From contig NZ_NWUS01000004.1 in NCBI RefSeq assembly GCF_014048475.1, positions 1 through 64,000 on the forward strand: DNA of 64,000 bases. The letters are read 5' to 3'. The stretch's first letter is position 1. Every line of letters starts with the position of its first letter. This DNA is from Bombella favorum. GTDB taxonomy: Bacteria; Pseudomonadota; Alphaproteobacteria; Acetobacterales; Acetobacteraceae. The notes under the pieces are model-generated. The model was given only the letters and a program-made list of their open reading frames with translations. It did not search any database and was not told the DNA's origin. Below are positions 41,926-54,424 of this stretch, in pieces. Position numbers and translations under genes: made by a program.

Positions 41926-44313
41926 TCAGAATCCGGCTGTCAGGCTAGCAAGGGCGGCGAAGGGGGCACCGATATAATAACCCGGTGCCGAGCCGCTAAT
42001 CCGTGTGCCATGTAGCCCGGTAGTGTCATGTGCGTTCAGCGCGGTGGAGTTGACGCCAGAGAGGTAACGTTGATTGCTGATGTTGCTCAGGTTCAGTCGT
42101 AATGTGGGTTGATGAAGGAAGCCCACATTGTTGAAGCGGTAACCAAGGCTTAGATCAGCCGTCATAATGGAAGGGATACGCTCGTCATTCATGAAGGTAG
42201 AATATTGGTGGCTCATGTAATGCATGGTGATCATGCTGAAGAAGTGTCCATCATCATAGCGTAATCCGGCGCCCACCTGAAAATGGGGGCTGCGGATCGC
42301 CGTCTTGCCTGCTGTTGGTAAGATGTCCCCTCCGGTGGCGATATTATTATCAATACTCGTATGGAGATACTCGAAGGACGCATAGGGGCTAATATGATGC
42401 CAGGGCCGTGTACCAAGCTCCACATCCACGCCACGGGAGGTCTGTTTCCCAGCGTTGATGGTCGTGATGATGTTGGGGTTGTTCGCTTCGCCTGTTTGTA
42501 TCTGCCGGTTGCGGAAATTATAGTTGAAGAAGGTCAGGCTTGCTGTCAGCCAATCCCCCGTGCGGCGGTATCCGAATTCCTCGGCGACTGAATATTCATT
42601 CTTCAGGTGGTTGGTCCCGGCCTGACTGATGGAGCCATTGGCTGCTCCATTCGCATCTACGCCAGCATAGCTGTTATAATAGGCAGAGACAGCCGGTGCC
42701 CGGAAATTGGTGTTCACATTGAGGAAGATTTGATCCTGCTTCGTGATGTTCCAGCGTAAGCCGAAGCGGGGAAGGGGTTCCTGCCTGTTGCTGGTAACGT
42801 TGCGCTGCGAGCCGGGCACATCGTTCGTCCCCCAGCGGTGCAGCATGACCTCCTTAAAGCCAATATCCATAGCCAAGCTGTCATCCATTAAGGAGATATG
42901 GTCGCCAATGTAGAGGGCATTGGTCTGCGACATGGTGTGAAAAGCCCCGGCCAGATAGGGGTTGCCATCTGACATGAGGATGCGGTTGCGCCTTTTGTCA
43001 GCCCAGATGTTGGCAGCGGAGCCATCATCACCCACGCTCGTGAAGGGCTGACGCTCATTATCATCGGAGTAGTCGTACCAGTAGCCCATGACGAAATCAT
43101 TCCATTTGTAATGGGCATGGAAGGCCATGTTCACACCGGCCCGATAACTGCGCTGGGTGTAATCAGCCCGGACGGTCTGGCCGTCTCTAACAGGTAGGGA
43201 GGACACGGGCTGAGAGCCGTAATAATTCCCCGTGCTGGAGAGCGTGGAACCATAGGGAAAGTTGCCGTAGGCACTCTGGGCATAAGGGGTGATGTCGAAG
43301 GAAAAACGCTGGTTGAAGCGCAGATGCACCGGTGCGCCGACATAGAGCGTTTCTTCCGGGTCGCGGGCAAGACGCCAGTAGTTGGTGCTGTTTTCACCGG
43401 GCTGGAAATGCTGGGTTAGCTTGCCGCTATGGGTGCCGTAGGTTTTCCAGTCCGCAAGGGAGGTAAAGGGGTAATAGCTGGTATCGGCTTTGTTCCATGA
43501 CCCCAGAAGGCTGGCATGGCTTCCTTGTCCCCATTCTTTGAGAAGCCTGAAGTCGATATGCTGGCGGGTGTCATACCCTCCGCTGCGCCAGTTGTCCGCA
43601 TGAGTGTTGGAATAGGAGACAAATCCCCTTACACCGCTATGGCCTATCTCACCTGTTTCCAGCCGGATGAAGCCACGCCTTGTGTTGAAGGACCCATAAG
43701 AGAAGGAGGCAAAGCCGCCGGGCTTTAGGGCGGGGTCAAGAAAGGAGAGTTTCATCAGCCCGCCTGCGGCGTTGAGGATAGGGCTGTCCAGATCGGCTGA
43801 TCCCTGTTGGAGGCCAATCTTGCTGTAATTTTCTGTATCGGCAAACTGGTTGGGGTAGCCATTGTAGGCGGCAATGTCGTTAAGGGGCATTCCCTCCAGC
43901 ACATAGCCCAGCGCATCGCCATTTAGGCCACGCACGCTGATGTTGGTGTTAGGCGAAATTCCGAACGGGTCGGATGTCATGACATTAGCACCCGGCAGGA
44001 TGGAGACGAGCTGAAAGGCCGAGGCCATAGGGGCCTGAATGTCCATGTAGCTGCGGCCCACCTCACTGATGGACTGCGTACCATGCTGAGGGCGGATCAG
44101 TCCGCCGCCACGTTGGACGACCTCCGGGGTGGCACGGGTGGTGATGTACTCCACCTTTTTGGCCTGCATGGCGTGGGGTGCCTGATGCTTGGCGGGATGG
44201 TGGGGCGTGGCGGATTTATGAGCCTGCTTCTGGGAGGCTGCTAGTGCCCAGCCGGGGCTACAGAGAAGTAGAAAGAACGGAGCTGTTTTTCTACCGGAGA
44301 AAAATGAACGCAT
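41926..44313 (-). CDS. TonB-dependent outer-membrane receptor, probable thiamine uptake
   Basis: This 795-residue receptor has a signal peptide ending WALAAS, a His/Ala-rich linker, a plug domain (SISEVGRSYMD, ISVRGLNGDALGYVLEGMPLNDI) and a 22-strand type barrel with a C-terminal aromatic-poor end LTAGF. A clear TPP riboswitch lies in its leader RNA (44403-44506), which makes thiamine or a thiamine phosphate the likely ligand. It is the first gene of a three-gene uptake operon with the kinase-like protein and PnuT. The start is supported by AAGGCGAAGA upstream. Confidence 0.9.
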   Translation of the reverse strand: MRSFFSGRKTAPFFLLLCSPGWALAASQKQAHKSATPHHPAKHQAPHAMQAKKVEYITTRATPEVVQRGGGLIRPQHGTQSISEVGRSYMDIQAPMASAFQLVSILPGANVMTSDPFGISPNTNISVRGLNGDALGYVLEGMPLNDIAAYNGYPNQFADTENYSKIGLQQGSADLDSPILNAAGGLMKLSFLDPALKPGGFASFSYGSFNTRRGFIRLETGEIGHSGVRGFVSYSNTHADNWRSGGYDTRQHIDFRLLKEWGQGSHASLLGSWNKADTSYYPFTSLADWKTYGTHSGKLTQHFQPGENSTNYWRLARDPEETLYVGAPVHLRFNQRFSFDITPYAQSAYGNFPYGSTLSSTGNYYGSQPVSSLPVRDGQTVRADYTQRSYRAGVNMAFHAHYKWNDFVMGYWYDYSDDNERQPFTSVGDDGSAANIWADKRRNRILMSDGNPYLAGAFHTMSQTNALYIGDHISLMDDSLAMDIGFKEVMLHRWGTNDVPGSQRNVTSNRQEPLPRFGLRWNITKQDQIFLNVNTNFRAPAVSAYYNSYAGVDANGAANGSISQAGTNHLKNEYSVAEEFGYRRTGDWLTASLTFFNYNFRNRQIQTGEANNPNIITTINAGKQTSRGVDVELGTRPWHHISPYASFEYLHTSIDNNIATGGDILPTAGKTAIRSPHFQVGAGLRYDDGHFFSMITMHYMSHQYSTFMNDERIPSIMTADLSLGYRFNNVGFLHQPTLRLNLSNISNQRYLSGVNSTALNAHDTTGLHGTRISGSAPGYYIGAPFAALASLTAGF

Positions 44314-44402
44314 GGAATCTTCGCCTTCGGTATACGACGGTGAAGGTTCGCAGTAGGGGCGTCAGTTCAGGGGGAGTAACGGGGGATAAACCCGCTCTAT
44401 GC

Positions 44403-44506
44403 TGTTTCCTGTCCCTTCGCCGGTACGAACCGGATCAGGTTCAAAGGGTTAGATGGGCTAATAGCCATCTTCTCAGCCTTACATCGCAAAGGCACCCCTC
44501 GGAACA
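44403..44506 (-). ncRNA. TPP riboswitch (THI element)
   Basis: On the minus strand the conserved elements appear in order: GAGGGGTGCC (P1/P2 start), the pyrimidine-sensor core GGCTGAGA, a variable P3 hairpin, then TGAACCTGATCCGGTT and the GTACCGGCGAAGGGA end. The outer ends can pair to close P1. It lies 90 bases upstream of the TonB receptor start. Downstream, CGGG/CCCG bases can form a small stem before the start codon that could act in expression control. Thiamine diphosphate would be expected to switch off the receptor-kinase-PnuT operon. Confidence 0.95.
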
Positions 44507-44660
44507 TATCCCTTCGTTAGCAGAGAGGGCGGCCTGTGTCTATTTGCTTTCCCCTTCGCCAGGGTGGTTCCCATAGCCTGTGGGATTCCCTTGTAAAAAA
44601 GCCGTATTCTGCCAATATCGCATGCAAATATGCACTGTCGGTTCTTTATATGGAGGTTAC

Positions 44661-45341: not shown

Positions 45342-46985
45342 TTGTTTAGGGCTTGCTGGCGGTATTTCAGGCTGATGTTAGTCTCCATGCCCCGGCGACG
45401 GCGGCATGAGGGAGTAAGTCCTGTCTGTCTTTATCAGGACAGGGAGGAAGGCGATGTGGATCAGGGTGCCCTGCTAACGGGGGGCGTGTTTCGCTTCGGC
45501 CAGAAGACCTACAGCCTGCCCTTGCGGGGTGTCTGGCAGACCAATAGCTGGCCGGATGATGTTCGCCGCTGGTTCTATGGCTTCGATTGGCTGCGGGATT
45601 TGCGGACGCTCGGGACGAATGGGGCCCGGCTTTTGGCCCGGTCCATGGTGGCCTCATGGGCGGACCGCCCGCCAACTGATTCAGTCGCACGGGAAAGCGG
45701 CGTGATGGGGCGGCGGCTGGCTAATTGGTTGGGGCATTATGAATTTTGCCTCTCCACCGCTACGGAGGGGACACAGCAGCTGGTTTTGGATGCCGCCGTG
45801 CGGGAGGCTCGTCGCCTTTCAGCTATGTTGCCTCTGCCGCCCACGGGGTGGGAAGGGCTGGTCGCCTTGCGGGGGCTGCTGGCTGTTTATATGGCTGTGC
45901 CGTATTATGATGGTTTCTTCAAACGGTTTGAGCAGCAACTTCCGCTGGAATTAAAGCGTCTTATGGGTGAAGACGGCATTACCGCCGAGCGCAGCCCGGA
46001 GGCACAGTATCGGTGCGTGCAGGAGCTGACAGCCATTCAGGGTATGTTCAGCACCTTGCAATGGATGCCGCCGGATTGTGTGCCGGTGATGTTAGGCCGT
46101 GCCTGTGCTGTATTGCGGGCGTTTTGTCATGGTGATGGCGGGTTAGCCCTGTTCAATGGCTCGCAGGAGCGTGGCGCAAAAGCTGTGCAAGACCTGCTGG
46201 AACAGGCAGAACGCTATAGGGTTGTTGCGTCTAGCATCAGCAAAGGTGGGTTTGCTCGTCTGACAGCAGGGCGGGCATTGTTGCTGGTGGATGCCGCCGC
46301 TCCGCCCTCTGCTGGGATGGATCGTCTGGCTCATGCCGGGACATTGTCTTTTGAATTTTCCCACTATCGGCAGCGGTTGTTTGTCAATTGCGGTGCAGCA
46401 GAGGGGGGAGCTTGGCAACGGGCCCTCCGGGGCTCTGCTGCTCATACAATTCTGGTTGTGGATGGGGAGTCCTCGTCTGATTTTGGGGAGGATGGCCATG
46501 TGACCCGCCGCCCCTCACAGGTGCGCTACGAAGAGAAACGACAGGGCCGCACGCAGGAACTGCACTTATCGCATAATGGATATTATCCATCTTATGGGGT
46601 CGTCTGGTTCCGTTCCCTGTTTCTGGCACCGTCTGGTGAGGAGCTCAGAGGGCAAGAGGTGGTGGAAGGCGAGCGGGATGTGCCCTTTACGTTAAGGTTC
46701 CATATTCATCCCGATGTCCGTGTGGAGCGGGAGGATGATGAGATTCTACTCCATGCCCCGTCAGAGATATGGCGTTTTCATCAGGTGGGTGGTGTGTTGT
46801 CCTTGGAGGAAGACCTGTATATGGGCCGTGGTGCGCCAGAGCAGACATCCCAGATCACTGTTCAGTCTCTTCCGGGCCGGACTGTGCCCGTGGTGGGGGA
46901 TGCGGCCGATGCTGGTAGCAGGGCCACAAAGCCCCCCAAACGCCAGCAGAGAGTGGAATGGGTGCTGGAGTATGTGCCTCTTTAG
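45342..46985 (+). CDS. Heparinase II/III-like protein
   Basis: This protein has 547 residues if it begins at the TTG at 45342 (AGGGG upstream). ATGs at 45375 and 45387 are alternatives. The N-terminal two-thirds are an (alpha/alpha) toroid-like helical region (YGFDWLRDLR, ANWLGHYEF). The C-terminal part is beta-rich (FEFSHYRQRLFVNCG, HNGYYPSYGVVWFRSL, RFHIHPDVRV), as in heparinase II/III family proteins. In alphaproteobacteria such a gene commonly sits near rpe and purH and its substrate is unknown. It should not be taken as a true heparin lyase. No signal peptide is seen. Confidence 0.82.
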   Translation: MFRACWRYFRLMLVSMPRRRRHEGVSPVCLYQDREEGDVDQGALLTGGVFRFGQKTYSLPLRGVWQTNSWPDDVRRWFYGFDWLRDLRTLGTNGARLLARSMVASWADRPPTDSVARESGVMGRRLANWLGHYEFCLSTATEGTQQLVLDAAVREARRLSAMLPLPPTGWEGLVALRGLLAVYMAVPYYDGFFKRFEQQLPLELKRLMGEDGITAERSPEAQYRCVQELTAIQGMFSTLQWMPPDCVPVMLGRACAVLRAFCHGDGGLALFNGSQERGAKAVQDLLEQAERYRVVASSISKGGFARLTAGRALLLVDAAAPPSAGMDRLAHAGTLSFEFSHYRQRLFVNCGAAEGGAWQRALRGSAAHTILVVDGESSSDFGEDGHVTRRPSQVRYEEKRQGRTQELHLSHNGYYPSYGVVWFRSLFLAPSGEELRGQEVVEGERDVPFTLRFHIHPDVRVEREDDEILLHAPSEIWRFHQVGGVLSLEEDLYMGRGAPEQTSQITVQSLPGRTVPVVGDAADAGSRATKPPKRQQRVEWVLEYVPL

Positions 46986-46991
46986 GGGGGA

Positions 46992-48209
46992 TTACTGGGG
47001 TGTGTTCTTGCGGATGATGGTCTTCTGGTGGGGGTCATACTCGTAAAGGTGGAGTGTGCCCTCCTGTATGAGGTGGGCTGCCTGACCAATCAGGGCAGCG
47101 GGTAGTAGGAACCATTCCTTGGGGTAGATCAGCTTCCCCATACGGTCATGGACGTGCAGTATCGCCCGTGAGGGAGAGAAAAAGCGATGAAGGCAGTCTT
47201 CCACCTTGCGATAGGAGAGATTGACCAGCGTATAGGTGGCTACAATCTCCACGGGTGCCATGAGGAAGGTAGGGTCATTGCGGGCATCGGCAACCCGGCG
47301 GCGAACATCACCGCTTGTGACACCAATCTTATAAAGTTCTCCACGTAGTTTACGGATGGCCGGAACATCGGAGAGAGAGCGGGCAACATAAATGGTACCG
47401 GTGGCGTTGGTGATAGTTTCGCTACCGGCGAGTGGCCCAAGGCCGATGCGGGATATGAAGCGGGCTGTCTTATCTTCTGTTAAGGACTTGCGGAAGGACG
47501 ACATAAGCGGGTCACTTTCCGTCCCATTGGAGAAGATAATGCGCAGGCGATGTTCTCGGTCGCCGTGGCGATAGGTCTTTTCATATTTCTCGGCGACATA
47601 GGCAATGAGACCATTACGGATGAAGAAGTCGCCTTCCGCAGGTTCAAGAATCTGGTTCTTCTTTATACGCTTTGCTTTGCGGGTGCCGTTGGCTATTTCC
47701 TGCTGCACAGCCTCGAACAGGGCCTCATAATCTTGAAAATTGTCGCAGGGCGTGATGAAAGCTTGATGCTCTGGCACGGCCCGTTCCGCAGCAGGGCTGG
47801 AGTGCCGGAGGGTGAAGAGGCTTTCATCTATGTCCAGGCTATCATCATTGAGGATATCATCCAGTGATTGGGGGATATCCGTAAAGGCCTGTTCATCCCG
47901 CCAGTCGGGTAGGGTTGGGGAGGGGGTGGTGGACTCGGCAAGTAACCCCAGCTTGTCAGCCTCCTTCATGGCTGGGGATGGGGTTTGCGCCATACGAGTC
48001 CATGCCGCTGCAAGGCACATTTCGTCGTGATCTTCAGCCTTGTTATCTGGGAACCTGCCGTGCTCTTCGTAAAAACGGCTCACCTGTTCCAGAAGATCCA
48101 ACTCTGTTTTGCGGGTACCTCGCCCCTGTGGAGATGGTGAGGCATCGTCCATAAGTAGGCCGAGTTCGTCATCCTCAGCGAAAATATCTTCCAGTGTGAG
48201 GCGTTTCAT
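46992..48209 (-). CDS. GIY-YIG nuclease (T5orf172/Mug113-type) of a three-gene defence locus
   Basis: This protein has 405 residues from the ATG at 48209. The frame runs further into the helicase gene, but this ATG sits 4 bases past the helicase stop. The N-terminal 150 residues are acidic and contain an EQVSRFYEEHGRFPDN helix. The C-terminal catalytic domain has GTIYV at 271-275 and YKIGV at 293-297 (the GIY and YIG strands), the arginine cluster 303-305 and glutamate 337 in KVEDCLHRFF. These are the expected active-site residues. It is the last gene of the methyltransferase-helicase-nuclease unit and is convergent, 6 bases from the heparinase-like gene. DNA cleavage is inferred. Confidence 0.85.
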   Translation of the reverse strand: MKRLTLEDIFAEDDELGLLMDDASPSPQGRGTRKTELDLLEQVSRFYEEHGRFPDNKAEDHDEMCLAAAWTRMAQTPSPAMKEADKLGLLAESTTPSPTLPDWRDEQAFTDIPQSLDDILNDDSLDIDESLFTLRHSSPAAERAVPEHQAFITPCDNFQDYEALFEAVQQEIANGTRKAKRIKKNQILEPAEGDFFIRNGLIAYVAEKYEKTYRHGDREHRLRIIFSNGTESDPLMSSFRKSLTEDKTARFISRIGLGPLAGSETITNATGTIYVARSLSDVPAIRKLRGELYKIGVTSGDVRRRVADARNDPTFLMAPVEIVATYTLVNLSYRKVEDCLHRFFSPSRAILHVHDRMGKLIYPKEWFLLPAALIGQAAHLIQEGTLHLYEYDPHQKTIIRKNTPQ

Positions 48210-48213
48210 AGGG

Positions 48214-50292
48214 TTAGTCCTGCCGCTGGCGTGCTTTGGCTTTGGCTTTGCTAAGATAAAGCCGTACGATAGCAAGGCGTTGTTCCAGCTCGTCGGGTGA
48301 ATGGGGGTCGGGGTGGCGACCTTCTTGTAGGCAGAAGGCCCGGAAACGGGGCCAGAGGGCTCGAGCCTCGTCATCTGTCATGGGGTAATTCTGGGCGGTG
48401 AAAGCGGTCTTGATCTGCGCTAGCAGGGGGGCGTCCATATCACGGGAGATGATTTCAAACCGTTCCTGAAAACAGTTGACGCTGTCGATCAGCTCCATGT
48501 CGATATCTTTTACATTGATGAGCCGCCTGACGAGGCTGAGCAACGTGTTAGGCGCACTGGCTGTCTTTTCGTCCTCTGTGGTGGGGCTTGGGCCAATGTC
48601 GGGTGAAGGCCTGTTCTCATCGGGGGTGGGTGGAGTGATGTCTTCCTCCGGGAGGGTTTGCCGGGCCAATGTGGAAAGATTGATGCGAGCGGAAAGCTGT
48701 TGCCGGACAGATTGCGTCTCATCTTGTGTTAGGTCGGGGTAGCGTTTCTCGATGATGCCAGTCAGCATGGGCTGGTTGAGGACTTCCGGGGCTGTGCTGG
48801 GGTTTAGGGCACGGCTGGACATGTGTTGATGGGTGGTGGCGACGAGGTCGTTCATGTCCCGTTCGCAGATGTCACGGGCCCGCTGGGTTGGGGGTTCATC
48901 AAGATTGTGGATGCCAATGGTGACATGCCCCTGTGCATCCGTGCTGATAGGCGCACGGATATCACCATCCTCCCGCCTGTAGAACTTGAAGTTGGGTGCC
49001 AGAACCTGCTCCATGAGTAGAGAGCCTGAAATGGCCTTGAGCATGTCATTTACGGCATCCTGCACGGCCTGTGTTTCCACTCCCGGCTCGGCGACCAGAT
49101 TGGTGAAGACAGCCCGTGTTTTGGCGGGTGCGTCCCGTGTGGCTCGGCCGATAATCTGGACGATCTCCGTCAGGGAGGAGCGGTAGCCTATGGTCAGGGC
49201 ATGTTCGCACCAGACCCAGTCAAACCCTTCCTTAGCCATGCCGAGGGCAATGATGATGTCCACCTTGGCCCGGTCGGCTTCGTCATCCCGTTTGCCATCT
49301 GGCCCGGTGATGGTTTTGGCAAGGCTGGCCTTGATGAGGTCCCGGTTGGGGCCATCATCCACAAGGTCAGCCACTTTGAGCAGCTGGCCATCAGGCCGGC
49401 GGACCAGATCAAACCCGGTTTCTGGGTCCCGTCTCTCAATCGTGCCGATGAGGTCGATGATCTGCCCGACCTCATTATATTTATCGTCAAAGGCCTCGGA
49501 TGACCCACGGTGCGGAATATGGATGATGGTCTTGCGTGTGGGGTCCAGAACATCCTTTAGCCCGTTGATGTAGGTCCCTTTATAGAACTCGTAGGAGATG
49601 CCCAGTTTCTTGAGGAACTCATACCCCTCTAGCTGTTCGTAATAGCTGTAGGTAATGGGGGTGAAGCGGCTTTCATCTTCCGGGCGGAGAACGGGGATGG
49701 AATCCCCTCGGAAGTAGCTGCCCGTCATCGCCATGAGGTGGCAGCGGTCCCGGCTCAGCAATTCCCGCAGGATGAAGCCGAGGCGGTTATTATCCCCCGC
49801 TGAGACATGATGAAACTCATCCACAGCGATGAAGCAGGAATCGAAACGCTCCACACCATCTTGTGCGATGACGGCATCATACCCAAAGCGGAAGGTAGCA
49901 TGGGTGCAGACGAGCACCTGCGCCTTGTCATCCTGTAGAAAATCCTGAAAAGCCCGCACCTTGCGGGGGGAGCTTTCGTCACTGTCGAGGCAGAGATTCC
50001 AGCGGTCTTCCACCACCCAGTCACATTCAAAACCGGGGAGGGATGTACTGCGGAAGGAGCCGCCGATGGAGGTCTCCGGCACGCAGATGATGGTTTTTTC
50101 CACGTGCTGGTGGCGCATCTTGTCCAGCGCGACGAACATGAGGGCACGGCTTTTCCCGGCGGCGGGCGGGGCCTTGAGGAGAATATGCTGGGCCTGCCGA
50201 ACATTGTAGACACGCTCCTGCATGGGGCGCATCCCCTGTGCGTTGGTGCCTGCCTTGCTGTGGCCATAGGTCATGGTGAGCATGTTTGCCAT
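48214..50292 (-). CDS. SF2 DEAD/DEAH-type helicase or translocase of the defence locus
   Basis: This protein has 692 residues from the ATG at 50292, 4 bases after the methyltransferase stop. Motif I is APPAAGKS at 41-48, motif II DEFH at 158-161, motif III TGS at 190-192, motif V GMAKEGFDW at 351-359 and motif VI QIIGRATRD at 379-387. The order matches superfamily 2 ATPases related to type I and III restriction translocases. The C-terminal 250 residues are not recognised and contain a Pro/Asp-rich linker near 560-590. It probably moves along DNA using ATP and links the modification and cleavage subunits. Confidence 0.87.
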   Translation of the reverse strand: MANMLTMTYGHSKAGTNAQGMRPMQERVYNVRQAQHILLKAPPAAGKSRALMFVALDKMRHQHVEKTIICVPETSIGGSFRSTSLPGFECDWVVEDRWNLCLDSDESSPRKVRAFQDFLQDDKAQVLVCTHATFRFGYDAVIAQDGVERFDSCFIAVDEFHHVSAGDNNRLGFILRELLSRDRCHLMAMTGSYFRGDSIPVLRPEDESRFTPITYSYYEQLEGYEFLKKLGISYEFYKGTYINGLKDVLDPTRKTIIHIPHRGSSEAFDDKYNEVGQIIDLIGTIERRDPETGFDLVRRPDGQLLKVADLVDDGPNRDLIKASLAKTITGPDGKRDDEADRAKVDIIIALGMAKEGFDWVWCEHALTIGYRSSLTEIVQIIGRATRDAPAKTRAVFTNLVAEPGVETQAVQDAVNDMLKAISGSLLMEQVLAPNFKFYRREDGDIRAPISTDAQGHVTIGIHNLDEPPTQRARDICERDMNDLVATTHQHMSSRALNPSTAPEVLNQPMLTGIIEKRYPDLTQDETQSVRQQLSARINLSTLARQTLPEEDITPPTPDENRPSPDIGPSPTTEDEKTASAPNTLLSLVRRLINVKDIDMELIDSVNCFQERFEIISRDMDAPLLAQIKTAFTAQNYPMTDDEARALWPRFRAFCLQEGRHPDPHSPDELEQRLAIVRLYLSKAKAKARQRQD

Positions 50293-50296
50293 TGGG

Positions 50297-53047
50297 TCAG
50301 CCCTCCTGCTTTTTTGTTGTGGAGCGTTTTTTGCGGGTAGTCTGTTTCTTCCGGCTTTGTGCCACATGGGCAGCATAGCGGCGGAAGAGATGCTCAAGCC
50401 GCTGTGTATCGTTAGTGAAGGGCTGGCCCTTGTTATACAGCCCCTCCAGCAGGGCATCATTGGCCTGATGTGCCTCCCAGAGATCGGCAGGCATTTTGTC
50501 CGGGTCGTACAGTTCGGCCAGAGACTTGTCGAAATAGGACGCCCGTACCCGCATGATCGCCCGCCCGGACTGCTTCAGGGCCTCTTTGTCTGCCTCCGTG
50601 AGGGTAGGCACGGGGAAGGTGTGCCAGCCGAGCGTGTTGGAATATTGGAAATCTGTTTTTAGGCGTCCACATACCGTGCCGCTCCATACCCAATGCATGC
50701 GTGAAACCAGCAGGGCAAAGCACCATTCTGGGGCGTCATAGAGGACGAAGTTTTTGTTTGAGGAAATCGTATCGGACTTGACACGGAGGACCGGAAGATA
50801 GGGGCGGCGTTCCGAGCTGATGCTAGGAACGAGGTAGGCGTGGTTTTGTGGGGCATCATGCTCTCTGAACTGCCAAGGGCGGTCCAGTAGTTTCTGGTTG
50901 TTGCGGGCGTCTTTCATGGCAAGACGGGCCGCATATGTAGCCTCTATGCGTTCGGCAATGGGCGGAATCTGTTTTGCCTGTTCCAGCTCTGCATCATCAA
51001 TCCAGAGGCAATAACGCTCAAGGTCGTTGATCGCTTCTTTAGACCCCATGAAACGCCGGATGAAGGGCTCAGCCTGTGGGGCCTGTTGCAGAAGTCGGTC
51101 TTTCTCTTCTGGTGAGAGGATGAGATGGCCGTTATCGGTGGGTTTGTTGCCGTAAGTCATCACAGGCAGGCCAAAGAGGCTTTTGCTAGCTTTTTCTATG
51201 AAGACATCCGGAGCATCGAGCAGATAGGCATTGATGTTTGTGGCCTGATGCTCCGTCTCCCCGGTGAAGAGGCGTTTTAGTATTGTTGTGGTCTTGGTTT
51301 CCGGGCGGTTTCTCAACCCGACAATGATGCAGATGACAGCGGCATTATGGCTGGCATTGTTGCGCCATTTAAAGGAGGTATGGGCAAAGCTGATTTCTAA
51401 CGCTTCCCCTAATAAATCGGGCCAAAGGGCATTGACGGCTTGTCCCTGACAAAGTGAGTTGGTGGAAACCAGAGCGGCTTCTGCCTGTCGTCCCTGAATA
51501 TAGCGGGCGGCTTTGAAGAACCATGCCGCCACATAGTCCAGCCCCTTATAGTTTTTTACGGCACCGGAGAAGGTGATGGCCATGTCGGCTTTCTGCTCTG
51601 CGTTCTGGTATGTTGAACCCAGAAACGGCGGATTGCCGATGATGTACACCAGCTCACCATCCCCCGGTGGCGGGCAGACGGCCTCCCAGTCGAGCCGTAG
51701 CGCATTACCGCAGACAATATGGGCGGCCTCCCGCAGTGGCAGGGGGGCAATGGCCCGGCCAAAACGCTCGGCAAAGAGGGCATTGGCCTGATATTCCGCA
51801 ATGAACAGGGCCAGCTTGGCCGTTTCTGCGGCAAAATCGGCACATTCTATGCCATGAAAATTGGCAATCGGGATGGTAGAAAATAGCTCCATCGTGTCAT
51901 TGCCGTTCAGTGTGGCCAGCCGTTGCAGGATGGTCATTTCCAGCTCTCGCAGCTGGCGATAGGCAATGACAAGAAAATTCCCGGAGCCACAGGCGGGGTC
52001 AAAAATATGGATATGACCGAGCTTATGCAGGAGCTTCTGTAGGGCTGCGGGTTTGTCCCAGTCCTTCTGGACCTCGCTGCGTAGACCATCCAGAAAAAGA
52101 GGGTCGATGACTTTGCGGATATTGGGGACGGATGTGTAATGCATCCCCAGTTCGGCCCGGATGCCCGTATCCGCAACAGATTGGATCATGGAGCCGAAAA
52201 TATCGGGGTTGATGTCCTTCCAGTCCAGCGCGCAGGCATCTTTCAGGTAACGGAAGGCCGTAACATCAAAGGTTGGTATGGTGATGTCACCAGCAAATAG
52301 CCCGCCATTGACGTATTCTAGCGGGGCTGTCCAGTCCGGCAGGTGGCTGCGTTCATCTTTCGGCAGGTTCATGGCTTCAAACCCGGCCTGAAGGACAATG
52401 TGCAGGGCCTCGCCTTCTCTCCCGCCATAGTCCAGCACCAGGCGGCTGAACTGGTCTTTAGGGAAGATGCCGACATCCTCGGAGAATAGGCAGAAGATCA
52501 GCCGCATCATGAACTGGTTCATAATGTGTGTATGGCTGGGGTTCTTCCACTCCGGATTATGCCGGATGAGGGCATCATAGAGCTTGGCCAGCTTGCCCGT
52601 TGCCTGCACGTCAACGGGGTTTTCCTCTACGGCCCGGTAACGCTCCTTACCAGCAGCGGGGAGGAAGAAGCCAAAATGTTTGGCCATTTCATCCAACGGG
52701 CAATGCAGGCTCTCCCCGCTGGCAGGGTGAAAAGCGGCCAGCATGGTACCATCTGTTGTGAGGAGAATGGCCGGCTTTGCCTGCTTGTTGCGGGGCGAGG
52801 CCTTCAACTGCTCTAAAACGACATCAACTGTCGCCTGTTCCGTTCCTCCAGCAGGGGCAAAGTGGAAGCGGCGGCTTAGCAGCACGCCACCGGGGAGGTC
52901 GGAACGGTTGGTCGCACCTTTGCGGAGCTTATCTACGGTTGCTTTTGCGGCGTCCGTAGCGAGTGCAAAGTCGTAGGGAAATATACTGTCATCAAAGGGC
53001 TGAGATGCGAGGTCCGAGAGAGCATCATAGATTTCGGTCGGATTCAT
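50297..53047 (-). CDS. Large class I adenine-type DNA methyltransferase, MmeI-family-like
   Basis: This 916-residue protein has an LGMHYTSVPNIRKVI stretch at 300-314, SAM-binding motif I FDPACGSGNFL at 349-359, catalytic NPPF at 472-475 and a long C-terminal half that should include target recognition. This resembles the MmeI/type IIG family. In that family the N-terminus is a PD-(D/E)XK nuclease. Here the first 130 residues have a related-looking layout (ILLTTDG, FHPASGESLHCPLDEM), but no D...EXK is visible, so cleavage ability is probably absent. The C-terminus is a lysine/arginine-rich tail. It is the first gene of the unit, and AAGGA lies 8 bases upstream. Confidence 0.88.
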   Translation of the reverse strand: MNPTEIYDALSDLASQPFDDSIFPYDFALATDAAKATVDKLRKGATNRSDLPGGVLLSRRFHFAPAGGTEQATVDVVLEQLKASPRNKQAKPAILLTTDGTMLAAFHPASGESLHCPLDEMAKHFGFFLPAAGKERYRAVEENPVDVQATGKLAKLYDALIRHNPEWKNPSHTHIMNQFMMRLIFCLFSEDVGIFPKDQFSRLVLDYGGREGEALHIVLQAGFEAMNLPKDERSHLPDWTAPLEYVNGGLFAGDITIPTFDVTAFRYLKDACALDWKDINPDIFGSMIQSVADTGIRAELGMHYTSVPNIRKVIDPLFLDGLRSEVQKDWDKPAALQKLLHKLGHIHIFDPACGSGNFLVIAYRQLRELEMTILQRLATLNGNDTMELFSTIPIANFHGIECADFAAETAKLALFIAEYQANALFAERFGRAIAPLPLREAAHIVCGNALRLDWEAVCPPPGDGELVYIIGNPPFLGSTYQNAEQKADMAITFSGAVKNYKGLDYVAAWFFKAARYIQGRQAEAALVSTNSLCQGQAVNALWPDLLGEALEISFAHTSFKWRNNASHNAAVICIIVGLRNRPETKTTTILKRLFTGETEHQATNINAYLLDAPDVFIEKASKSLFGLPVMTYGNKPTDNGHLILSPEEKDRLLQQAPQAEPFIRRFMGSKEAINDLERYCLWIDDAELEQAKQIPPIAERIEATYAARLAMKDARNNQKLLDRPWQFREHDAPQNHAYLVPSISSERRPYLPVLRVKSDTISSNKNFVLYDAPEWCFALLVSRMHWVWSGTVCGRLKTDFQYSNTLGWHTFPVPTLTEADKEALKQSGRAIMRVRASYFDKSLAELYDPDKMPADLWEAHQANDALLEGLYNKGQPFTNDTQRLEHLFRRYAAHVAQSRKKQTTRKKRSTTKKQEG

Positions 53048-53173: not shown

Positions 53174-54424
53174 TTACCCTACCCGGACGAGGATATGCTT
53201 CTTCTTGCCGGAGGAAAGTTTTAGCGCACCATCTGTCAGGTCGGCAGATGTGATGATTTGGTTCTCATCCTTAATGACCACATCATTCAACCGGGCACCA
53301 CCCCCACGGATGAGACGGCGGGCTTCGCCACCGCTGGCAGCCAGTCCGGCTTCTGCAAAGAGTTTGAAGGCCGGCATCCCCTCAGCAGGTAGGCCAGAGG
53401 CAAGCGTGACTTCCGGTAGGGCGGCCTGAACGCTCCCCTGTTCAAACACTTTGCGAGCCGTCTCGGCAGCTTCCTCGGCGGCTTCCCGACCGTGACAGAT
53501 GGCCGTGGCCTCGGTGGCCAGAATCTTCTTGGCCTCGTTGATCTCTGCCCCTGCCAGTGCACCGAGACGCTCACATTCTTCCACGGGCAGGTCCGTGAAC
53601 ATTTTGAGGAAGCGGCTGACATCGGCATCCTCGGTATTGCGCCAGAACTGCCAGTAATCAAACACAGGCCGCCGTTCCTTGCGGACCCATACGGCCCCGT
53701 TGGCGGACTTGCCCATCTTGGCACCGGAGGATGTGGTGACGAGGGGTGTCGTCAGCCCGAACAGGCGGGCACCGTCGGTGCGGCGGGCAAGGTCGATGCC
53801 GGAGACGATGTTGCCCCACTGGTCAGAGCCGCCCATCTGGAGGATGGCCCCGTGGCGGCGGTGCAGCTCCCGGAAGTCGAACGCCTGAAGGATGGAGTAG
53901 TTGAACTCCAGGAAAGTCAGCCCCTGTTCCCGGTCCAGCCGTTGCTTCACGCTCTCAAAGGAGAGCATCCGGCTGACAGAGAACTGCACACCGACATCTT
54001 GAAGCAGGCCGATGTAAGATAGTTTATCCAACCAGTCCGCATTATTGACGAGGCGGCATTTATCATCATCAAAGTTCAGGAATTGCCCAAGAGAAGCCCG
54101 CAGGCCGGCGAGATTATGGGTGATAGTCTCATCCGTCATCAGGGAGCGGGCTTCATCACGGAAGGAAGGGTCACCAATCTTTGCCGTGCCGCCGCCAATC
54201 AGGGCGATGGGGTTGTGCCCGTGCTTCTGGAGCAGCCGTAGCATCATGATCGACATGGCATTGCCCACATGCAGGGAGTCTGCTGTGGGGTCAAAACCGA
54301 TATAGGCCGTAATAGGGCCAGCCAGCATGAGTTCATCCAATGCTTCGAAATCTGTGCACTGGAAGATCATGCCACGGGCTTTTGCTTCCCGCAGGAATGG
54401 GCTTTTAAGCGTTATATCGGTCAT
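53174..54424 (-). CDS. tyrS: Tyrosyl-tRNA synthetase
   Basis: This 416-residue class I synthetase has the HIGH-type motif as LHVGN at 51-55 within YIGFDPTADS. The KMSKS loop is KMGKS in SSGAKMGKSANG. A C-terminal S4 RNA-binding domain (LIRGGGARLNDVVI) follows. It charges tRNA-Tyr. The start has GGAAGAAGG about 7 bases upstream. It is transcribed towards the defence genes, separated by the tandem inverted repeats. Confidence 0.97.
   Translation of the reverse strand: MTDITLKSPFLREAKARGMIFQCTDFEALDELMLAGPITAYIGFDPTADSLHVGNAMSIMMLRLLQKHGHNPIALIGGGTAKIGDPSFRDEARSLMTDETITHNLAGLRASLGQFLNFDDDKCRLVNNADWLDKLSYIGLLQDVGVQFSVSRMLSFESVKQRLDREQGLTFLEFNYSILQAFDFRELHRRHGAILQMGGSDQWGNIVSGIDLARRTDGARLFGLTTPLVTTSSGAKMGKSANGAVWVRKERRPVFDYWQFWRNTEDADVSRFLKMFTDLPVEECERLGALAGAEINEAKKILATEATAICHGREAAEEAAETARKVFEQGSVQAALPEVTLASGLPAEGMPAFKLFAEAGLAASGGEARRLIRGGGARLNDVVIKDENQIITSADLTDGALKLSSGKKKHILVRVG

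Follow-up and report, generated by a model that had tools for sequence, protein, structure and literature searches.

The first 64,000 nt of contig NZ_NWUS01000004.1 of Bombella favorum (contig C4 of the 1.97-Mb genome, assembly GCF_014048475.1; this whole stretch is referred to as the window) carry three consecutive minus-strand genes that encode an MmeI-type DNA methyltransferase, a superfamily 2 (SF2) helicase and a GIY-YIG protein. The trio probably constitutes an intact three-subunit restriction-modification (R-M) system of the DnmA-YeeB-YeeC kind, working in the manner of a Type I system. The locus had been picked out as a candidate defence system from the DNA letters alone (the original prediction), and methylation-linked defence is the best reading of the evidence assembled here. 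The family is common, with about 7% of the Pseudomonadota genomes sampled carrying it, and is spread on plasmids. The member studied in most detail nevertheless appears to be dead, and an established mechanism for the family was not found in the accessible literature. The features of the system are as follows.

50297-53047, minus strand: MmeI-family (Type IIL-like) N6-adenine DNA methyltransferase, DnmA/YeeA homologue, 916 amino acids (aa); five Pfam MmeI domains, PDB MmeI 5hr4 E=2.4e-154
52562-53047, minus strand: MmeI_N-like N-terminal domain of the methyltransferase, residues 1-162, in which the D70/E80/K82 nuclease residues of MmeI are missing; Pfam PF20464 E=8.5e-23, alignment with 7 intact MmeI-type proteins
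50600-51217, minus strand: target-recognition domain (TRD) of the methyltransferase, residues 611-816, divergent among close relatives; Pfam PF20466
48214-50292, minus strand: SF2 helicase/translocase, YeeB homologue, 692 aa; conserved motifs, weak Pfam matches, model resembling the MrfA and HsdR helicases
46992-48209, minus strand: GIY-YIG nuclease, YeeC homologue, 405 aa; Pfam MUG113 and T5orf172
47079-47399, minus strand: GIY-YIG catalytic domain, about residues 271-377; Pfam, alignment and model

The recomputed open reading frames (ORFs) match those first proposed in position, strand and spacing. Both intergenic gaps are 4 nt, an AGGA-type ribosome site lies ahead of each start, and the start codons used give a helicase beginning MANML and a GIY-YIG protein beginning MKRL. 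Promoter and terminator scans of the locus gave results at chance level.

Domains, motifs and models

The assigned gene identities are backed by Pfam domains and intact motifs. The methyltransferase matches all five MmeI families (MmeI_N, MmeI_hel, MmeI_Mtase, MmeI_TRD and MmeI_C) and has FDPACGSGNFL at residue 349 and NPPF at residue 472. The helicase holds Walker A, DEFH and QIIGRATR; its Pfam scores (DEAD, ResIII, Helicase_C) are weak and lie under the curated cut-offs. In the GIY-YIG protein, GTIYV is at 271 and YKIG at 293, followed by R305 and E337. Across an alignment of 73 family members the catalytic residues of the trio are constant or almost constant overall: G271, Y274, K294, G296, R305 and E337 of the nuclease do not vary, nor do the key helicase residues (Walker A, DEFH, TGS and QIIGRATR). 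Because of this constancy, and of the low ratios of nonsynonymous to synonymous change (dN/dS) given below, the motif pattern is not a chance one.

In a fold search with the helicase model the top match was MrfA, a DUF1998 helicase, and HsdR of EcoR124I also ranked among the best. The modelled fold is in line with a restriction-type motor, though not specific to one. The model of the GIY-YIG protein is good in its folded parts (predicted local distance difference test score, pLDDT, 82). Its matches to eIF5A/EF-P were weak, with low template-modelling scores (TM-scores); the N-terminal half perhaps contains a small beta-barrel. A sequence search of solved structures gave nothing useful for the helicase or the nuclease.

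Loss of the fused nuclease

MmeI cleaves DNA with a nuclease of its own, for which V69-D70...E80-M81-K82 are required (PMC4833311). The counterpart of these residues was sought in MmeI-type methyltransferases from 299 evenly drawn Pseudomonadota genomes, of which seven are full-length proteins without a helicase and 18 are trio members with a complete N-terminus. The pattern [VI]D-x9-E-x-K is present at one aligned place in all seven stand-alone proteins and in none of the 18 encoded with a helicase. The absence of D...EXK from the N-terminus of the Bombella protein, noted in the original prediction, is thereby confirmed, since the stand-alone relatives keep the motif at the aligned place and serve as a positive control. 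The accompanying proposal that the separate nuclease is the likely cutter is likewise supported. A D..ExK pattern occurs in two of the 73 trio methyltransferases (L060, L061) at a non-homologous place ('VDQGLSMIRSDKK') and was judged a chance match.

This comparison bears on the reading of the methyltransferase as a Type IIL/IIG enzyme that still cleaves DNA on its own, using a nuclease site that has diverged, while the helicase and GIY-YIG genes are unrelated neighbours. The MmeI_N family is still recognisable in the protein, and PADLOC labels it a Type IIG restriction enzyme-methyltransferase. The uniform lack of the motif in the trio members, the obligate co-location with helicase and nuclease genes described in the next section, and the lack of endonuclease activity of DnmA in earlier work, as that work is cited in PMC7261158, make such self-cutting highly improbable.

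Conservation of the trio

GTDB species genomes were scanned with an alignment of the helicase, yielding at least 558 confirmed relatives, and gene order was checked in the best 80. The methyltransferase, helicase and GIY-YIG genes have the same order and strand in 78 of these; the remaining two are cut by contig ends. In the 299-genome sample the helicase occurs in 20 genomes, and in every one (20/20) a methyltransferase that matches MmeI strongly is encoded upstream of it, in the same orientation. In neither set is the helicase found without the methyltransferase, apart from contig-end cases. The neighbourhood survey thus supports conserved co-location of the three genes.

The closest helicase among the listed relatives is that of Bombella intestini (L049; 99% identity), and a full trio with a helicase 44% identical is present in a Bacillus locus (L126). 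The trio is carried on many plasmids. The gene order is the same at all eight plasmid loci that were opened, from Kozakia, Gluconobacter, Zymomonas, Arthrobacter, Synechococcus, Aeromonas, Bosea and Klebsiella. The only relative in phage records was a short piece of the helicase that carries a phage label. In many Acinetobacter baumannii plasmids (e.g., NZ_MG954378.1, NC_025109.2) the helicase is reduced to its first 139 residues. These fragments fit the yeeB/yeeA remnants reported within the blaOXA-23 transposons Tn2006/Tn2009 (PMC9258068).

Selection, co-evolution and an exchangeable recognition domain

Comparisons among Bombella genomes by the Nei-Gojobori method put dN/dS at about 0.11-0.18 for each gene of the trio and at 0.02-0.11 for neighbouring core genes. 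Two exceptions near 0.28 occur in the very close pair formed by the window genome (G000) and B. intestini (G001): the methyltransferase, in which the TRD inflates the value, and the nuclease, which has few changes. The low ratios indicate purifying selection; therefore all three genes of the trio are maintained.

The three proteins have also changed together. Over 73 loci, pairwise distances correlate at r=0.95 for helicase and nuclease, 0.93 for helicase and methyltransferase core, and 0.91 for nuclease and methyltransferase core. TRD distances follow the other parts of the trio weakly (r 0.37-0.43). Adaptation of the helicase and nuclease to any one DNA sequence is therefore improbable, and the simplest source of specificity is the methyltransferase.

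The TRD has a different history from the rest of the protein in the G000-G001 pair. The two methyltransferases are 80.0% identical within the TRD and 97.9% identical outside it, and synonymous divergence is 0.46 within and 0.06 outside. Judged from these alignments, the TRD alone has been exchanged, by replacement of a segment and not by slow drift. This exchange argues for active restriction, as does the fact that the fused nuclease has been cleanly lost.

The specificity positions defined for MmeI (PMC4833311) were read in the five Bombella methyltransferases and gave five different residue sets. The window protein has Y/K at position 2, K/Q at position 4 and K/D, the K806/D808 equivalents, at position 6. 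Y/K would be expected to specify C at position 2 and K/D G at position 6; the code for K/Q at position 4 is uncertain. The motif predicted from these pairs is thus N-C-N-N-A-G, with the A methylated.

Proposed mechanism

In an intact R-M system of the DnmA-YeeB-YeeC kind, the MmeI-type protein would read an asymmetric site of ~6 bp through its TRD and methylate one adenine, the penultimate base, on one strand, thus marking the host DNA. Its N-terminal nuclease would be dead. At an unmethylated site the methyltransferase, or a complex built on it, may recruit or activate the SF2 helicase, which would travel along the DNA in an ATP-driven manner and bring the GIY-YIG nuclease to cut, presumably giving activity against phages. 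As the helicase and nuclease would have no specificity of their own, a TRD swap is proposed to shift methylation and restriction together. Because only one strand of the asymmetric site would be methylated, a pair of sites in opposite orientation is probably required for cleavage. A rule of two opposed sites is known from the Type III/ISP enzymes.

Several points weigh against this picture. The predicted structure of the helicase is of moderate quality (pLDDT 67), a modest confidence for the model, and the N-terminal half of the nuclease found no convincing structural match in the fold search. Biochemical proof of restriction activity for any member of the family was not found in the accessible literature. 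The B. subtilis cluster protected neither against the three phages tried nor against plasmid uptake/transformation, and it has been termed a relic (PMC9973331, PMC7261158).

Relation to DnmA-YeeB-YeeC and other systems

In B. subtilis, DnmA (YeeA) is an MmeI homologue that methylates GACGAG (enzyme M.BsuPY79I, site GACG-m6A-G), and yeeB, encoding a helicase, and yeeC, encoding a T5orf172/GIY-YIG protein, lie directly downstream (PMC7261158, PMC9973331). The Bombella locus is a member of this described arrangement because the same gene trio was reported there. The novelty implied by the original prediction, which had found no match to known gene content, is to that extent withdrawn: the trio largely matches what had been described. 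Likened through published descriptions and family content, the two clusters share the three families, their order and their strand, and both methyltransferases belong to the MmeI family and lack its endonuclease motif; the B. subtilis control genome matches the MmeI families in profile scans. The Bombella copy differs in keeping all the family-conserved motifs, and its recognition residues probably give a different DNA motif.

The dnmA-yeeB-yeeC cluster has been surveyed across bacteria and phage-tested (PMC9973331), and the tests of the B. subtilis cluster date from 2020 and 2023. It has been called 'Type I-like' or 'noncanonical' R-M, with no formal defence-system name beyond these labels (PMC7261158, PMC9973331). 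As cited in PMC7261158, Morgan et al. 2009 described MmeI homologues without the endonuclease motif beside yeeB/yeeC-type genes; as cited there and in PMC9973331, Makarova et al. 2011 associated such genes with defence islands. Removing homologous genes made Vibrio crassostreae more sensitive to some phages, according to the account in PMC9973331. No earlier report of a locus of this type in the present host was found in the literature. New here are the loss of the nuclease motif in trio members against its retention in stand-alone proteins, co-evolution that leaves out the TRD, the TRD exchange with B. intestini, the different predicted specificity residues in each of the five Bombella copies, the absence of the trio from 6 of 11 Bombella genomes and the defence genes lodged in the gap of other loci, the last two described below.

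The B. subtilis work also suggests that the methyltransferase alone may matter, through gene expression or epigenetic signals, with the helicase and nuclease as relics. Deletion of dnmA changes gene expression and does not alter phage or plasmid uptake (PMC9973331, PMC7261158). The Bombella helicase and nuclease, however, are under purifying selection similar to that on the methyltransferase and have intact catalytic residues. Furthermore, a TRD swap between near-identical genomes is not what a conserved regulatory mark would be expected to favour, and a helicase separated from its methyltransferase is seen only at contig ends. For the Bombella trio, orphan methylation of this kind is therefore considered unlikely.

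Another of the closest known systems is MmeI itself (Type IIL), with which the Bombella methyltransferase shares the five domains, the TRD framework and nearly the length (919 aa in MmeI, 916 aa here); MmeI has its own nuclease, whereas the Bombella protein lacks one and has a separate helicase and nuclease instead. The locus resembles Type I (HsdRMS) systems in its methyltransferase-borne specificity, in an ATP-driven helicase that the fold search places near HsdR, and in the decoupling of restriction from specificity. It differs in having no HsdS, HsdM or HsdR genes, specificity residing in one MmeI-type protein, and in a nuclease that is a separate GIY-YIG protein, whereas HsdR carries PD-(D/E)XK. 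A classical Type I assignment was rejected for want of an HsdS gene at the locus. Models of DISARM class 1 (DrmMI) and BREX (PglX) match parts of the methyltransferase weakly. These systems were also rejected: the BREX models fall far below their cut-offs, and no PglZ, BrxC, DrmA, DrmB/DUF1998, phospholipase D or other core genes are present at the locus.

Defence genes in the methyltransferase-helicase gap

More than 280 bp separate the methyltransferase and helicase genes in 36 of 106 measurable loci. ORFs in this gap include several with Abi_2, GmrSD N-terminal, Schlafen AlbA_2, YhcG PD-(D/E)XK, RhuM, FRG and PIN domains; loci with extra sequence in the gap include L051, L058, L067, L072, L078, L091, L092, L094, L112, L119, L123, L156 and L157. 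The Synechococcus plasmid locus has a RelE-type toxin-antitoxin pair in the gap. The window copy has no insert. Defence genes thus seem to have docked in the gap repeatedly, and the inserts resemble the lodging of such genes within other restriction loci.

Such lodgers would also suit an arrangement in which the helicase and nuclease form an effector that senses damage or replication intermediates (Type IV-like or abortive), with methylation acting apart from it as an off-switch or addiction element and no direct site recognition by a complex that contains the methyltransferase. The nearness of the helicase model to MrfA as well as to HsdR points the same way, and a three-protein complex is something that we infer. 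The tight co-evolution of methyltransferase core, helicase and nuclease, combined with free exchange of the TRD, suggests instead direct contact with the methyltransferase core, and the Pfam scan of the trio revealed no modified-base reader or other sensor domain. A sensing effector is accordingly judged quite unlikely, and the intact three-subunit R-M system is preferred. It is conceivable, at somewhat less than even chances, that the family forms a formally unclassified R-M class in which a nuclease-dead MmeI methyltransferase is the exchangeable specificity subunit for a co-evolving helicase-GIY-YIG effector and the gap is a docking site for defence genes.

The insertion site in Bombella

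The trio lies between two core genes that form the edges of the insertion site and are not part of the system.

53174-54424, minus strand: tyrS, upstream of the trio
45342-46985, plus strand: heparinase II/III-like gene, downstream of the trio

Both flanks are present in all 11 Bombella genomes examined. The trio is found in five, and the other six have no helicase match anywhere in the genome. In four of these six the flanks are directly adjacent, ~20 bp apart in G009, G005 and G010 and ~100 bp apart in G008; in the other two, the tyrS frame is extended (G002) or the flanks are on separate contigs (G006). The GC fraction of the trio (0.54-0.58) is the same as that of the flanks, so base composition does not point to a very recent arrival from a distant source. 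Bombella is a small culturable genus in which close relatives are with or without the trio, and with differing TRDs, at one fixed site. This combination makes the choice between active restriction and orphan methylation directly testable.

The extended tyrS of G002 (L036:1501-3657) is a 718-aa frame in which ~300 extra residues interrupt the C-terminal S4 region, and a Pfam search assigned this insert to no family. One other N6_Mtase-family gene is present in the host genome, outside the window (G000:C2:262929-263933, in a 522-aa frame), and is possibly a Type I HsdM. Elsewhere in the window, a thiamine pyrophosphate (TPP) riboswitch (44394-44509, minus strand) lies upstream of a TonB-type receptor gene (41926-44313), which is probably a thiamine-related transporter.

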